A program made the position numbers and the translations under genes. A DNA stretch of 64,000 nt from Flammeovirga kamogawensis (lineage in GTDB: Bacteria > Bacteroidota > Bacteroidia > Cytophagales > Flammeovirgaceae), in the NCBI RefSeq assembly GCF_018736065.1, contig NZ_CP076128.1:1116001-1180000 (forward strand). Reading direction: 5' to 3'. The notes beneath the pieces were generated by a model that did no database searches, was not told the origin of the DNA, and saw nothing but the letters and a program-made list of their open reading frames with translations. Shown here in pieces: positions 1-5,446 of the stretch. Each line of letters starts with the position of its first letter. The stretch's first letter is position 1.

Positions 1-333
1 CGTACTAGAATGACAAAAACAGAATACATTTCTTGTCCTTCTTGTGGTAGAACACTATTTGATTTACAGGAGACTACAGCTATGATCCGTAAAAGAACAG
101 ACCACCTTAAAGGGGTGAAAATTGGAATTATGGGCTGTATTGTAAACGGACCGGGCGAAATGGCAGATGCAGATTACGGTTATGTTGGATCTGGTAAAGG
201 AAAAATTACCTTATATAGAGGACAGGAAGTAGTAAAAAGATCTGTTCCTGAAGCAAATGCAGTAGATGAATTAATTAATTTAATTGACGAAGATGGTAAT
301 TGGTTTGCTCCATCAGATGATCTTTTAAATTAG
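1..333 (+). CDS. ispG: 4-hydroxy-3-methylbut-2-enyl diphosphate synthase, C-terminal end (partial)
   Basis: This is the last ~110 codons of IspG (GcpE), the 4Fe-4S enzyme of the MEP isoprenoid pathway that converts methylerythritol cyclodiphosphate to HMBPP. The frame is open from base 1, so the gene begins upstream of the window; the ATG at 10 is internal. Visible are the CPSCGRT iron-sulfur ligand motif and the block [20 protein letters not shown], which holds the third cluster cysteine and the conserved Glu. The protein ends ...APSDDLLN and a strong terminator follows. Identification is secure; the domain architecture cannot be judged from this fragment. Confidence 0.95.
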
Positions 334-353
334 TAAAATCATATTTTTAAATT

Positions 354-406
354 AATAAGAGAGTTAAGAACAGATTTAAATTGTTTTTAACTCTCTTATT
401 TTTTTA
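354..406 (+). terminator. Rho-independent terminator after ispG
   Basis: A perfect 14-bp stem (arms 354-367 and 387-400) is followed by a run of T from 399 to 405. It lies 20 nt after the ispG stop codon. Confidence 0.85.
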
Positions 407-547
407 TGATTCCTGAGTTTTGACGCTATTAAATCCACTTATTAAAAAGAGTATTTATCACCTAAGAAGTCATCCAATCAGTGCTGTTACTTTAAAGAAA
501 TTAACAGCTAAACAGCTACAAATCTTCATTTTATAAGAATAAATTCT

Positions 548-555
548 TACCTTTG
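548..555 (+). promoter_or_regulatory. Predicted rpsA promoter, -7 box
   Basis: TACCTTTG matches the Bacteroidota -7 consensus TAnnTTTG. Transcription would begin near 560-563, exactly at the first leader hairpin. I see no convincing TTG -33 element. Confidence 0.55.
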
Positions 556-560
556 CATGC

Positions 561-688
561 TGAATTATACGTACTAGCTCTATAATTCAGAGTGATTTCC
601 ACGTACTAGCTCTGTAAATCACACAATATCAATATTTTAAATTATATCTCTTTCGTGACAGCACTAGCGGAAGAGCGTAAACAGTGCT
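561..688 (+). promoter_or_regulatory. rpsA leader RNA with twin identical-loop hairpins and a third hairpin
   Basis: Hairpin 1 has a perfect 9-bp stem (561-569/581-589) and loop CGTACTAGCTC. Hairpin 2 has a 7-bp stem (592-598/616-622), one mismatch, then C600-G614 and A601-T613, and exactly the same 11-nt loop (602-612). The stems differ in sequence while loop and closing A-T pair are kept, which argues for a structured RNA rather than a chance DNA repeat. A third hairpin (660-665/683-688) has a 17-nt loop containing GGA and ends 8 nt before the preferred start codon. E. coli rpsA is known to be autoregulated through a leader of successive hairpins without a Shine-Dalgarno; a similar role here is inference. 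Confidence 0.7.
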
Positions 689-696
689 TTATTATT

Positions 697-2484
697 ATGT
701 CAGAACAATCACAAGACTTCAACTGGGACGAATTCGAAGCAGGTTCTTCAGCATTCGGTGATGGCTATTCAGCTACAGAAAGAGAAGAAATGTTGAAAAT
801 GTACGAAGGTACATTGAATTCATTAACTGAAAAAGAAGTAGTTAAAGCTACTGTAGTTTCTATTACAGACCGTGATGTAGTATTAAACATTGGATTCAAA
901 TCTGATGGTTTAGTTCCTTCTAACGAATTCCGTGACACTCCGGACCTAAAAGTAGGTGACGAAGTTGAAGTATTTGTTGAGCAACAAGAAGACGCAAATG
1001 GTCAACTTGTTCTTTCACGTAGAAAAGCTAAAATCGTTCGCGCTTGGGAAAATATCCAAAATGCATTGGATAACGACGAAGTTATCGAAGGTGTTATTAA
1101 GCGTAGAACTAAAGGTGGTCTTATCACTGATATATTTGGAATCGAAGCATTCTTGCCAGGTTCTCAAATTGATGTGAAGCCTATCCGTGACTTCGACGTA
1201 TTTGTAGGTAAGAAGATGGAGTTAAAAGTAGTTAAAATTAACTATGCTAACGACAACGTTGTAGTTTCTCATAAGATCTTGATCGAAAAAGATTTAGAAG
1301 AGCAAAAACAACGTATCTTGAACAACCTAGAAAGAGGTCAAATCTTGGAAGGTGTGATCAAAAACATGACAAACTTCGGTGTATTCATCGACTTAGGTGG
1401 TGTAGATGGTCTTCTTCACATTACAGACATCTCTTGGGGACGTATTTCTCATCCAGAGGAAGTATTACAACTTGACCAAAAAGTTAACGTTGTTGTTCTT
1501 GACTTTGATGATGACAAGAAACGTATCTCATTAGGTATGAAACAACTTACTTCTCACCCTTGGGATTCTCTTGGTGCTGATGTTGAAGTTGGAGCAAAAG
1601 TTAAAGGTAAAATCGTTAATGTTGCTGACTACGGTGCATTCTTAGAAATTATGCCAGGCGTTGAAGGTCTGATCCACGTTTCTGAAATGTCATGGTCTCA
1701 ACACTTACGTAACCCTCAAGACTTCATTAAAGTTGGTGACGAAATCGAAGCAGTTGTATTAACTATCGATCGTGACGAGCGTAAGATGTCTCTAGGTATC
1801 AAGCAATTAACTGAAGACCCTTGGACTAAGAAAGACTTATTAGAGAAGTATGCAGTTGGAACTAAGCACTCAGGTGTTGTTCGTAACTTAACTAACTTCG
1901 GTCTATTCTTAGAATTAGAAGAAGGTATCGACGGTTTAGTTCACGTTTCTGATCTTTCTTGGACTAAGAAAATCAAGCACCCATCTGAATTCATCAAACA
2001 AGGTGAGCAATTAGATGTTGTTGTTCTTGAAATCAATCCAGAAGAGCGTCGTTTAGCGTTAGGTCATAAGCAATTAGAAGAAAACCCTTGGGAACACTTC
2101 GAAACAGTATTCACTGTAGATTCAGTTCATAAAGGTACTATCCTTTCTAAATCTGACAAAGGTGCTGTAATCGAATTACCTTACGGTATCGAAGGTTTCT
2201 CTATGAGCAAAAACCTTAAGAAAGAAGACGGATCTAATCCTGAAACAGGTGAATCTTTAGACTTTAAAGTATTAGAGTTCTCTAAAGATGATAAGAGAAT
2301 CCTTCTTTCTCATGTTCATGTTTACAATGAAAACGCAGCAGTTGCAGCTCCTAAGAAAGCAGCAGCTAAAAAAGGTGGTAGCAAGCCAGCAGCACAAGGA
2401 TCAAACGAAGAAGCTACAACTTCTTTAGGTGATTTGGATGCATTAGCTAACTTGAAACAACAACTTAAAGGTGGTAAAAAGTAA
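697..2484 (+). CDS. rpsA: 30S ribosomal protein S1
   Basis: RNA-binding ribosomal protein that helps mRNAs dock on the small subunit. Six S1 (OB-fold) repeats can be followed, with signatures such as NMTNFGVFIDLGGVDGLLHI and VADYGAFLEIMPGVEGLIHV, then a basic tail (AAPKKAAAKKGG) ending QQLKGGKK, typical of Bacteroidota S1. The frame opens at a GTG at 655, but I chose ATG 697: the upstream extension falls inside a predicted leader hairpin, and MSEQSQDFNWDEFE resembles the usual acidic N-terminus of this family. Length (595 aa) is normal for the phylum. No Shine-Dalgarno is visible. The leader hairpins suggest autogenous control. Confidence 0.96.
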   Translation: MSEQSQDFNWDEFEAGSSAFGDGYSATEREEMLKMYEGTLNSLTEKEVVKATVVSITDRDVVLNIGFKSDGLVPSNEFRDTPDLKVGDEVEVFVEQQEDANGQLVLSRRKAKIVRAWENIQNALDNDEVIEGVIKRRTKGGLITDIFGIEAFLPGSQIDVKPIRDFDVFVGKKMELKVVKINYANDNVVVSHKILIEKDLEEQKQRILNNLERGQILEGVIKNMTNFGVFIDLGGVDGLLHITDISWGRISHPEEVLQLDQKVNVVVLDFDDDKKRISLGMKQLTSHPWDSLGADVEVGAKVKGKIVNVADYGAFLEIMPGVEGLIHVSEMSWSQHLRNPQDFIKVGDEIEAVVLTIDRDERKMSLGIKQLTEDPWTKKDLLEKYAVGTKHSGVVRNLTNFGLFLELEEGIDGLVHVSDLSWTKKIKHPSEFIKQGEQLDVVVLEINPEERRLALGHKQLEENPWEHFETVFTVDSVHKGTILSKSDKGAVIELPYGIEGFSMSKNLKKEDGSNPETGESLDFKVLEFSKDDKRILLSHVHVYNENAAVAAPKKAAAKKGGSKPAAQGSNEEATTSLGDLDALANLKQQLKGGKK

Positions 2485-2533
2485 TTAGCTAACCGCTAAT
2501 TATTATTTATACTTTTAGTTTAAGCATACAGGT

Positions 2534-2569
2534 ACACCCTATTTACTTCGGTAAGTAGGGTGTTTTTTT
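2534..2569 (+). terminator. Rho-independent terminator after rpsA
   Basis: Arms 2534-2546 and 2551-2563 enclose a cTTCGg tetraloop, one of the most stable RNA loops, followed by a T-run to 2569. Confidence 0.9.
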
Positions 2570-2856
2570 ATAGGTAAAAATTAACATTAGTATTATTTAT
2601 TGAAAACACAACCATTAACAACACTTTACACACCTTATAAACTAGATTAACAATAGATTCTACTATTACTAAAAAACAACTCAAAATAATATTATTCACT
2701 TATTTTAAATAGGACATTTAAGCAATGTTAACTCTAAATGAACTTTTATTCATTTAACTTTATTAACACAATCATTAATAGTTGGTTTTCAGTTAATTAC
2801 ATTACTAAACATTGTTTAATATAAAATAATGATATAAAAAATGTGAAATAAAAACT

Positions 2857-2864
2857 TAGTTTTG
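2857..2864 (+). promoter_or_regulatory. Predicted promoter -7 box for the first TonB receptor operon
   Basis: TAGTTTTG fits TAnnTTTG and lies 48 nt before the ATG at 2912. Confidence 0.45.
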
Positions 2865-2911
2865 CAACATTATTTATACTTCCAATTATTCATCTACACA
2901 ATTTTTCATTT

Positions 2912-5446
2912 ATGAAAAACACTTTACTCCTACTTCTTTCATTATTGATATCCGTATCAATTAATGCACAAGAATCATCGACGTTGATCAAAGGTACTGT
3001 GATCGACGGAGCAACTGGAGAACCTGTTATTGGTGCTTCTGTAATTATTGACGGAACAACAACAGGTGCAATTTCAGATTTTGATGGTAACTACGCTATC
3101 AAAACATCTTTGTCAGGTACAAAAAAATTAGTTATCTCGTTTGTGGGATATACTTCGATTGAAAAACAAGTTGAACTGAATGGTTCTACTATTACAATTG
3201 GAGAAACGAAATTAAATTCTGATGCAATTGGTCTTGCTGAAGTTGAAGTTATTGCTTCTGTTGCAATTGACAGAAAAACTCCTGTTGCAGTTTCTACAAT
3301 CAATCCAGAGAGTATTGAAACTAAATTAGGAACAAAAGAATTTCCAGAGATCTTAAAATCTACTCCCGGTGTTTATGCAACTAAACAAGGTGGTGGATAT
3401 GGTGATGCTAGAATTAACATACGTGGTTTCAACTCAGCTAATGTAGCTGTAATGATTAATGGAGTTCCAGTAAACGACATGGAAAATGGCTCTGTTTATT
3501 GGTCTAACTGGGCAGGTTTATCTGATGTAACAAGATCAATGCAAATGCAAAGAGGTCTTGGTGCTTCTAAAGTTGCTGTTCCTTCAGTTGGGGGTACTCT
3601 AAATATTCTTACTAAAACTACAGACGCTCAAAAGGGTGGTAATATCTTCTATGGTATTGGTAATGACGGTAGAGAAAAAATTGGTGTTACATTGTCTACA
3701 GGTAAAATGGATAATGGATATGCAGTAACATTCTCAGGTTCTAGAACTACTGGACAAGGTTTTGTAGACGCTACCTCTTTTGAAGGGTACTCTTACTTTA
3801 TCAATGTTTCGAAAGAAATAAATAAAAATCACATGTTATCTTTCACTGCTTTTGGTGCACCACAAGAACATGGACAAAGAAATGGTTATAACCAAGGTAT
3901 TGAAGATTATCAAAAATATGGTGGAATCAGATATAACTCAGATTGGGGATATCTAGATGGTCAAGAATACAACTTATTCACGAATTTCTATCATAAACCG
4001 CAAATTTCATTAAATCACTATTGGACAATTAATGACAAATCAAGTCTTTCAACTTCAGCTTATGTTTCAGTTGGACAAGGTGGTGGAACAGGTTTCCTAG
4101 GTACATCTAAAGACACTGATAATTATAGAAGAGCTGATGGCCTTATTAATTTCGAACAAATTAGAGATGAAAATATTGAGTTAGCTGAACAAGGTTTAGG
4201 TTCTGAAACTATCTTGAGATCTTCGAATAATAATCATACTTGGTTTGGAGCATTGTCTGTTTATGAAAATAAACTGAATGATTATCTTACTTTTATGGGT
4301 GGTTTAGATATTAGATATTATTATGGTGAACACTACAGACAAGTAGAAGATTTACTTGGTGGTAATTATTATTTAAGCAATTCAAATATGAACCAACCAA
4401 ATCATAAAGCGGTTGTTGGAGATAAAGTTGCTTACAATAATGATGGTGAAGTATATTGGCTAGGAGGATTTACTCAACTTGAATATTCAAAAGATAAATT
4501 ATCTGCATTTGTCTCTGCATCACTTTCAAACACTACATATATCCGTTATGATTATTTCCAATATGAAAAAGGAAATCAGAAGTCTGATAATTACAATTTT
4601 ATTGGATATAACTTAAAAGGTGGTTTAAATTATAATCTTACAGGAAATCATAATGTATTCTTTAATACAGGTTACATTTCAAGAGCTCCTTTCTTCCGTT
4701 CTGTATTCCCTAATTATACTAATGAAGGAAATAAAACAGCAGAAAACGAAAAAATATTATCTTTTGAAGTAGGTTATGGTTTCCGTTCGTCTAAGTTCAA
4801 TGCTAACCTAAATGTCTACCATACACAATGGAAAGATAGATCATTCACTAAAACCGTAAATCAAGACTACACTGCTAACTTATTAGGAGTGAATGCTACC
4901 CATCAAGGTATTGAATTAGATGCAAAATATAACATCAACCATAAATTAACAATTACTGGTATGTTATCAATTGGTGATTGGAGATGGGATAATGATCTAG
5001 AAAATGTCCCTGTTTTTGATCAAAACAACCAACAGGTTGACTCAGTGAATGTATACATCAAAGATTTACACGTAGGTAATTCAGCTCAAACAACTGCTGC
5101 TCTTGGTTTAAATTACAAAATTGTTAAAGGTTTAAGATTTGGAGTAGACTACAACTTCTTTGGTAATAACTATGCGGACTTTGATCCTACTCAACGTGAT
5201 AACGCTGAAGATAAAAGTGAGGCATGGAGAATGGAAGACTTTAACGTAGTTGATCTTAATGTAAGTTATAATTTCGAATTAGGTAAAGTATTTAATGCCA
5301 CTGTTTATGGTAATGTTGACAACTTATTGAACTCTGAATATATCACAGATGCTCAAGATGGTGCAGATCATACCGCTCAATCAGCTACTCGTATTTACTA
5401 TGGTACTGGTAGAACTTGGAACATGGGAATGAAATTAAAATTCTAA
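2912..5446 (+). CDS. TonB-dependent outer-membrane receptor, copy 1
   Basis: An 844-aa TonB-dependent receptor that would import a substrate across the outer membrane using ExbBD-TonB energy. A signal peptide ending SINAQ (residues 1-20) is followed by a carboxypeptidase-regulatory-like domain (~25-110, GTVIDGATGEPVIGASV), a plug (~125-240, with STPGVYATKQGGGYGDARIN and NGVPVNDME) and a beta-barrel ending in Phe. The substrate is unknown. Nineteen bases later comes a lipoprotein gene in the position a SusD would occupy, although that protein is not SusD-like. It is closely paralogous to the receptor at 7133-9700, including a 45-nt identical stretch in the plug. Confidence 0.93.
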   Translation: MKNTLLLLLSLLISVSINAQESSTLIKGTVIDGATGEPVIGASVIIDGTTTGAISDFDGNYAIKTSLSGTKKLVISFVGYTSIEKQVELNGSTITIGETKLNSDAIGLAEVEVIASVAIDRKTPVAVSTINPESIETKLGTKEFPEILKSTPGVYATKQGGGYGDARINIRGFNSANVAVMINGVPVNDMENGSVYWSNWAGLSDVTRSMQMQRGLGASKVAVPSVGGTLNILTKTTDAQKGGNIFYGIGNDGREKIGVTLSTGKMDNGYAVTFSGSRTTGQGFVDATSFEGYSYFINVSKEINKNHMLSFTAFGAPQEHGQRNGYNQGIEDYQKYGGIRYNSDWGYLDGQEYNLFTNFYHKPQISLNHYWTINDKSSLSTSAYVSVGQGGGTGFLGTSKDTDNYRRADGLINFEQIRDENIELAEQGLGSETILRSSNNNHTWFGALSVYENKLNDYLTFMGGLDIRYYYGEHYRQVEDLLGGNYYLSNSNMNQPNHKAVVGDKVAYNNDGEVYWLGGFTQLEYSKDKLSAFVSASLSNTTYIRYDYFQYEKGNQKSDNYNFIGYNLKGGLNYNLTGNHNVFFNTGYISRAPFFRSVFPNYTNEGNKTAENEKILSFEVGYGFRSSKFNANLNVYHTQWKDRSFTKTVNQDYTANLLGVNATHQGIELDAKYNINHKLTITGMLSIGDWRWDNDLENVPVFDQNNQQVDSVNVYIKDLHVGNSAQTTAALGLNYKIVKGLRFGVDYNFFGNNYADFDPTQRDNAEDKSEAWRMEDFNVVDLNVSYNFELGKVFNATVYGNVDNLLNSEYITDAQDGADHTAQSATRIYYGTGRTWNMGMKLKF

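Follow-up and report, generated by a model that had tools for sequence, protein, structure and literature searches.

The window analysed here, that is, the whole stretch of 64,000 nucleotides from Flammeovirga kamogawensis (contig NZ_CP076128.1, positions 1,116,001 to 1,180,000 of the forward strand), opens within ispG and continues into rpsA, the gene of ribosomal protein S1. The leader of rpsA, at 560-696, carries two hairpins with the same loop, followed by a pseudoknot that ends shortly before the start codon. It is near certain that this leader is a structured, selected cis-acting RNA, and our analysis slightly favours (probability about 0.55) a cis-acting element that controls the translation of S1, probably through feedback by protein S1 itself. 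The features of the locus are as follows, where helix S1 denotes a part of the pseudoknot and protein S1 the gene product.

10-333, at the start of the window: 3' part of the ispG gene (partial matches to NCBIfam IspG models, with scores under the cut-off)
548-555, plus strand: -7 promoter element TACCTTTG, recognised by sequence, upstream of HP1
560-590, plus strand: HP1, the first hairpin; stem 560-569/581-590, 10 bp; loop 570-580, CGUACUAGCUC
592-622, plus strand: HP2, the second hairpin; stem 592-601/613-622, 7+2 bp with one mismatch; loop 602-612, CGUACUAGCUC
623-647, plus strand: AU-rich linker, predicted to be unpaired, with little conservation in the genus
648-688, plus strand: H-type pseudoknot; helix S1 648-655/668-675 (8 bp), helix S2 660-665/683-688 (6 bp), loops L1 656-659, L2 666-667 and L3 676-682
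689-696, plus strand: A/T-only spacer from the pseudoknot to the start codon, without a Shine-Dalgarno sequence
697-2484, plus strand: rpsA, ribosomal protein S1, 595 amino acids, AUG at 697 (NCBIfam NF004953, 30S ribosomal protein S1, E 6.3e-269)

The loops of HP1 and HP2 are identical over 11 nt (CGTACTAGCTC), and both are closed by an A-T pair, as had been stated in the original prediction, which was made from the sequence of this stretch. The stem sizes given there were right for HP2, with 7 + 2 pairs flanking a C-U mismatch, and one pair short for HP1, which has 10 perfect pairs including C560-G590 instead of 9. The 68-nt fold of the two hairpins was more stable than those of shuffled sequences (z -2.81), 2 of 200 of which were as good. 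In the whole genome (6,968,008 bases) the exact 11-mer is present at two places, both in the rpsA leader, and its reversed control at none. When one mismatch was allowed within the window, 5 of 100 shuffles also gave at least two loop matches, so the weight of the case lies in conservation.

The 11-mer was found before rpsA in all nine Flammeovirga genomes and in none of nine other genomes of the family. Conservation in close relatives had been named beforehand as the point on which the idea should be judged; it held within the genus and failed outside it, and the fixed loop is thus a genus feature, not a Bacteroidota-wide motif. Seven of the Flammeovirga genomes have two exact copies at rpsA, while the other two (G001 and G005) have one exact copy and one copy with a single change (CGTACAAGCTC), and the loop is identical in 16 of the 18 hairpins. 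The same leader is present in Flammeovirga sp. OC4 (L048) and F. pacifica (L049). The coding sequence of rpsA diverges by up to about 13% among the genus genomes, and in the alignment of their leaders the loops stand as near-invariant blocks with variable stems between them. In G006 the 11-mer is present once more, within a long open frame presumably of a sulfatase-like protein by reading of its translation, and this copy was taken as chance. Window positions 1-8 (CGTACTAG), within the ispG frame, also match the loop motif over its first eight bases, which we took as a coincidence.

Covariation of the stems was assessed with the 18 hairpins (nine genomes, two each), which were reduced to 15 distinct ones by dropping three duplicates and were aligned without gaps. 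Changes on both sides were observed at 7 of 10 stem positions. Paired cells made up 80.0%, compared with 64.0% in shuffled alignments, double-change cells numbered 27 against a shuffled mean of 11.3, and the covariation score was 0.445 against 0.187; none of 500 shuffles reached any of these three values. Sliding the 3' arm by 1-3 columns gave at most 16 double-change cells and a score of at most 0.109. Compensating changes thus maintain the pairing of the stems, and in the loop it is the sequence itself that is conserved, which bears out the earlier claim of selection on both RNA structure and loop sequence. The same result bears on the possibility that a transcription factor binds the repeats as DNA and that the inverted repeats are incidental. 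The 32-bp period of the direct repeat, close to three turns of the helix, would suit such sites. However, the distance between the repeats varies among the Flammeovirga genomes (32, 36 or 37 bp), so the helical phase is not kept, and DNA sites do not require the covariation that the stems show, which leaves this explanation extremely unlikely.

Each loop holds three self-complementary 4-mers, GTAC, CTAG and AGCT, by which the loops could kiss each other, or could kiss in trans as mRNA dimers. Yet the self-duplex of the loop (-4.4 kcal/mol) was matched by 377 of 1000 shuffled loops, pairing between the loop and the leader was at chance level in nine genomes (93 to 169 of 200 shuffled loops paired as well), and the loop variant of G001 and G005 is present on one hairpin only. 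Loop-loop kissing, which had been offered as a possibility, is thus not favoured, and we regard it as very unlikely.

The loop proved to be restricted to rpsA. A covariance model of the hairpin gave 12 matches in 18 genomes with E values of 2.1e-5 or lower, all of them in rpsA leaders and together covering 9 of 9 genus genomes, and the next-best match had an E value of 0.09. This search, which was not exhaustive, scored the best 150 first-look candidates in each genome out of 762 to 2510, and for six of the nine Flammeovirga genomes its output contained a single hairpin of the two. An exhaustive pattern search was made for the loop with its closing pair, tolerating one mismatch at most. It gave four places in the genome of F. 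kamogawensis, two of them being the loops of HP1 and HP2, and 41 places in the nine genus genomes. All 16 exact matches and 2 one-mismatch matches lie before rpsA, in agreement with a restriction to the rpsA leader within the genus. The remaining 23 one-mismatch places lie elsewhere, a number close to the 21 of the reversed control, and in the 13 of them that were examined at most two contiguous pairs lie beside the loop. Ribosomal-protein leaders are expected only before their own gene, and in the nine genus genomes this is what was found for the loop of the twin hairpins. Since the loop site is used only by rpsA, the gene's own product fits better as a ligand than a global regulator does.

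A loop that is fixed, duplicated and genus-specific would also be expected if it were bound in trans by a lineage-specific partner other than protein S1, such as another RNA-binding protein, a processing RNase or a small RNA. Against this, the searches offered no second target, as the one-mismatch places away from rpsA were about as many as in the reversed control and formed no stem where examined, and nothing else was significant among the 150 candidates scored per genome. The complement of the loop is likewise absent from the genome at the full length of 11 nt (count 0). We consider a partner of this kind unlikely. The loop did not resemble ribosomal RNA (rRNA) beyond chance either: its best ungapped identity to the organism's own rRNA operon was 8 of 11, equalled by 275 of 300 shuffled loops, and that of a 15-mer including the closing pairs was 11 of 15, equalled by 54 of 300 shuffles, in a partial comparison with a 5501-base stretch of which 2500 bases are masked as N.

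The original prediction placed the feature at 561-622, which takes in the hairpins but ends too early, and it missed the pseudoknot at 648-688. The 3' strand of the pseudoknot ends eight bases before the rpsA AUG, in the stretch that the 30S subunit must occupy. Its assignment to the H-type follows from two crossing helices, both of which covary across genera, and from the shortness of L1 and L2, the loops L1, L2 and L3 having 4, 2 and 7 nucleotides in the window. We scanned for crossing helices with a stack sum of -16 or lower in the 75 bases before the start, with dinucleotide shuffles as control. A start was found in 152 of 159 loci, and after short and identical leaders were dropped, 139 were scanned, 120 from Cytophagales and 19 from other orders; identical leaders were also dropped from the promoter-hairpin, alignment and tetraloop counts. 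Order membership was taken from kinship labels and record titles, with L053 and L060, titled as other groups, retained for their rpsA similarity, and some starts remain wrongly placed (e.g. L032, L152, L153, L155 and L173). The pseudoknot was present in 89 of 120 distinct Cytophagales leaders, compared with 71 of 2400 shuffles, and in 0 of 19 leaders of other orders. A further set of 40 loci, 5 of which were left out as they had no ATG start, gave 1 in 35, with uncertain starts. The distance from helix S2 to the AUG was 7-12 bases in 70 of the 89 pseudoknot leaders.

For covariation of the pseudoknot, 77 leaders of other genera (70 distinct) were aligned with MAFFT without use of structure. 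On the structure of leader L107, helix S1 had 115 double-change cells (shuffled mean 48.1, maximum 67; at most 55 when slid) and helix S2 had 87 (shuffled mean 37.4, maximum 52; at most 32 when slid). With L097 as reference the counts were 112 for helix S1 and 101 for helix S2, where the shuffled maxima were 62 and 70 and slid arms gave at most 52 for both. Thus rpsA has a covarying RNA structure in its 5' untranslated region, the 5' end of which is predicted, as is seen in ribosomal-protein leaders.

The N-terminus of rpsA is kept from AUG 697 onward across the genus, and no canonical Shine-Dalgarno sequence precedes it, positions 680-696 being AACAGTGCTTTATTATT. The length of the spacer between the pseudoknot and the AUG differs within the genus by amounts not divisible by three. 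A GTG start at 655, which the list of open reading frames had proposed, was rejected because of these out-of-frame changes, and for the same reason the leader is not coding. Transcription attenuation was rejected as well, since terminator-like sites on the plus strand within 1-3000 were found only at 354-400 and 2534-2563 and none in the leader.

On the promoter side, we take TACCTTTG at 548-555 to be a Bacteroidota-type -7 box (TAnnTTTG), and TA[CT]CTTTG is present at the -7 position in 9 of 9 Flammeovirga rpsA leaders. Because the box is located there, a transcript start is predicted near 560, a few bases past the box and at the base of HP1, which is plausible from the sequence. A hairpin at this place is widespread in Cytophagales rpsA leaders, a point that the original prediction had missed. 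Hairpins of at least 5 bp starting at most 10 nt from the -7 box were found in 88 of 118 boxed leaders of the order, compared with 741 of 2360 shuffles, and the former count is lowered because the box finder misplaces the box in the Pontibacter group. Among 115 distinct leaders of other Cytophagales genera, a loose -7 box pattern was seen in 111 (without a chance control) and a tetraloop hairpin beside the box in 69, and 49 of these 69 tetraloops fit NRGU (GGGU 26, GAGU 17, AGGU 3 and AAGU 3), both of the latter counts being without a shuffled control. The promoter-side hairpin of the order thus often carries an RRGU tetraloop. GGGU or GAGU is preferred on changing stems (CGUUC, CAUUC), for example in L052, L057 and L067, and the 5' hairpin with this loop in many Cytophagales rpsA leaders is a conserved element in its own right.

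Given how widespread promoter-side hairpins with a preferred loop are, a 5'-end hairpin of this sort is probably an old feature of the order. Flammeovirga seems to have its own version of this older leader in the twin hairpins, with two larger hairpins and another loop in the same place, a descent that we infer from position and not from sequence homology. A simpler function has to be considered here, in which the twin hairpins protect the 5' end of a highly expressed mRNA. The stem would block decay enzymes, the loop would be kept for folding or RNase resistance, and the pseudoknot alone would regulate. The base of HP1 at the expected transcript start, the spread of the promoter-side hairpin over the order and the NRGU tetraloops outside the genus are all in its favour. 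However, protection calls for a stem; it does not require an 11-nt loop to be shared by 16 of the 18 hairpins, or to be repeated on a second hairpin away from the 5' end, and as a full account it appears to us rather unlikely.

In order to relate the leader to known systems, we compared it with Rfam and with published leaders. At the gathering score, Rfam gave no match in the whole window. At a permissive threshold in 450-760 there was none in the leader, which agrees with the earlier view that the motif is not a known one, and the single match, on the minus strand at 496-525 and hence upstream of the leader, was weak and below the cut-off. Sixteen related loci gave 13 matches (RNase P, tRNAs and weak small RNA models), none of them in an rpsA leader. 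No description of a Bacteroidota rpsA leader was recognised in the literature searched, which consisted of top-ranked results, with most subscription papers outside its scope.

The rpsA operator of gamma-proteobacteria belongs to the same gene and is likewise a structured leader without a Shine-Dalgarno sequence and with AU-rich single strands; in E. coli, protein S1 is reported to repress rpsA through this folded initiation region (PMC10931766). Compared by description, the Flammeovirga fold appears to differ, with twin hairpins and an H-type pseudoknot and no Rfam match, and S1 repression is demonstrated for the gamma-proteobacterial leader and putative for that of Flammeovirga. Bacteroidota leaders of L13, S4, S15, S16 and other ribosomal proteins, as reported (PMC7247131), resemble that of Flammeovirga in that they covary, lie directly before the gene and are lineage-restricted, whereas an S1 leader is absent among the examined table rows for that set of 20 new ribosomal leaders. 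The E. coli rpsO leader has a pseudoknot at the ribosome-binding region, which is described as melted by protein S1 on the 30S subunit (PMC3858243), while the Flammeovirga pseudoknot ends eight bases before the AUG. In the tisB mRNA, which has a 5' pseudoknot and a standby site, the leader pseudoknot is reported to be required for binding of S1 and of the 30S subunit (PMC7708055); unlike rpsA, tisB encodes a toxin, and its structure is near the 5' end, far from the ribosome-binding site. Judged from sequence, the Flammeovirga leader would belong to the known kind of ribosomal-protein leaders, with putative ligand binding.

Other orders of the class showed two further patterns before rpsA. AGGAG, resembling a Shine-Dalgarno sequence, was found 4-20 nt before an in-frame rpsA start in 7 of 40 loci, of which five have TTG (L212:234-256, L215:231-253, L229:270-292, L199, L227, L230 and L237), with further cases seen by eye. 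This is at odds with the reported Shine-Dalgarno blindness of the phylum and could represent a second kind of rpsA control. AUACAAA was noticed by eye shortly before rpsA in L166, L167, L209 and L232, in L166 and L167 directly 3' of a predicted stem, and these leaders possibly form a third type.

Taking the favoured reading by its parts, it is quite likely that the leader element regulates rpsA, and the chances that protein S1 is the ligand are about equal to those that it is not. Protein S1 is usually seen as an RNA binder of low specificity. Bacteroidota ribosomes are reported not to recognise Shine-Dalgarno sequences (PMC9976891), and because they ignore these and the pseudoknot ends eight bases before the AUG, initiation should need something that opens the pseudoknot. 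Feedback by protein S1 is favoured because of the E. coli precedents of rpsA, rpsO and tisB. The pseudoknot would lower the access of ribosomes until protein S1 opens it, and a surplus of free protein S1 would keep the leader closed, giving feedback on its own translation. The 5' hairpins may then serve as an upstream recognition module as well as protectors of the 5' end, and the two loops with the AU-rich linker could offer single-stranded RNA in tandem to a protein that has several RNA-binding domains.

Several observations weigh against regulation by S1 feedback. The 143-nt fold of the leader was no more stable than those of shuffles (z -0.99; 39 of 200 as good), and HP2 is weak in G007 (-1.3 kcal/mol) and G003 (-4.5). 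In the stem alignment of the genus, neither the number of pairs with a double change (reached in 133 of 500 shuffles) nor that of further pair types (234 of 500) exceeded shuffles. Helix S2 is invariant in Flammeovirga and owes its support to variation in other genera. No pseudoknot past the -16 threshold was found in 31 of 120 leaders of the order, part of which have wrongly placed start codons and part interrupted stems. Eight of the nine other family genomes encode a protein S1 with 73-82% identity, the last of the nine having no full-length match, and a loop present only in one genus is not easily explained as S1-specific when the protein is conserved; this leaves room for another binder or for plain protection. 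The fullest form of the S1 feedback reading is put forward tentatively and seems doubtful to us. In this form, S1 would regulate itself through the Cytophagales rpsA leader, an RNA of a kind not yet described with an H-type pseudoknot next to the start codon as its core, and Flammeovirga would have added a duplicated hairpin with a fixed loop as a sequence-specific tandem S1 site.

The leader raises the question of how Bacteroidota control the synthesis of S1, for which feedback by the protein has been described in gamma-proteobacteria (PMC10931766). A pseudoknot located just before the AUG makes a direct test possible of whether protein S1 can open its own message. Additionally, the fixed and duplicated loop of Flammeovirga is a natural ligand with which to ask whether protein S1, or another protein, reads RNA in a sequence-specific manner.
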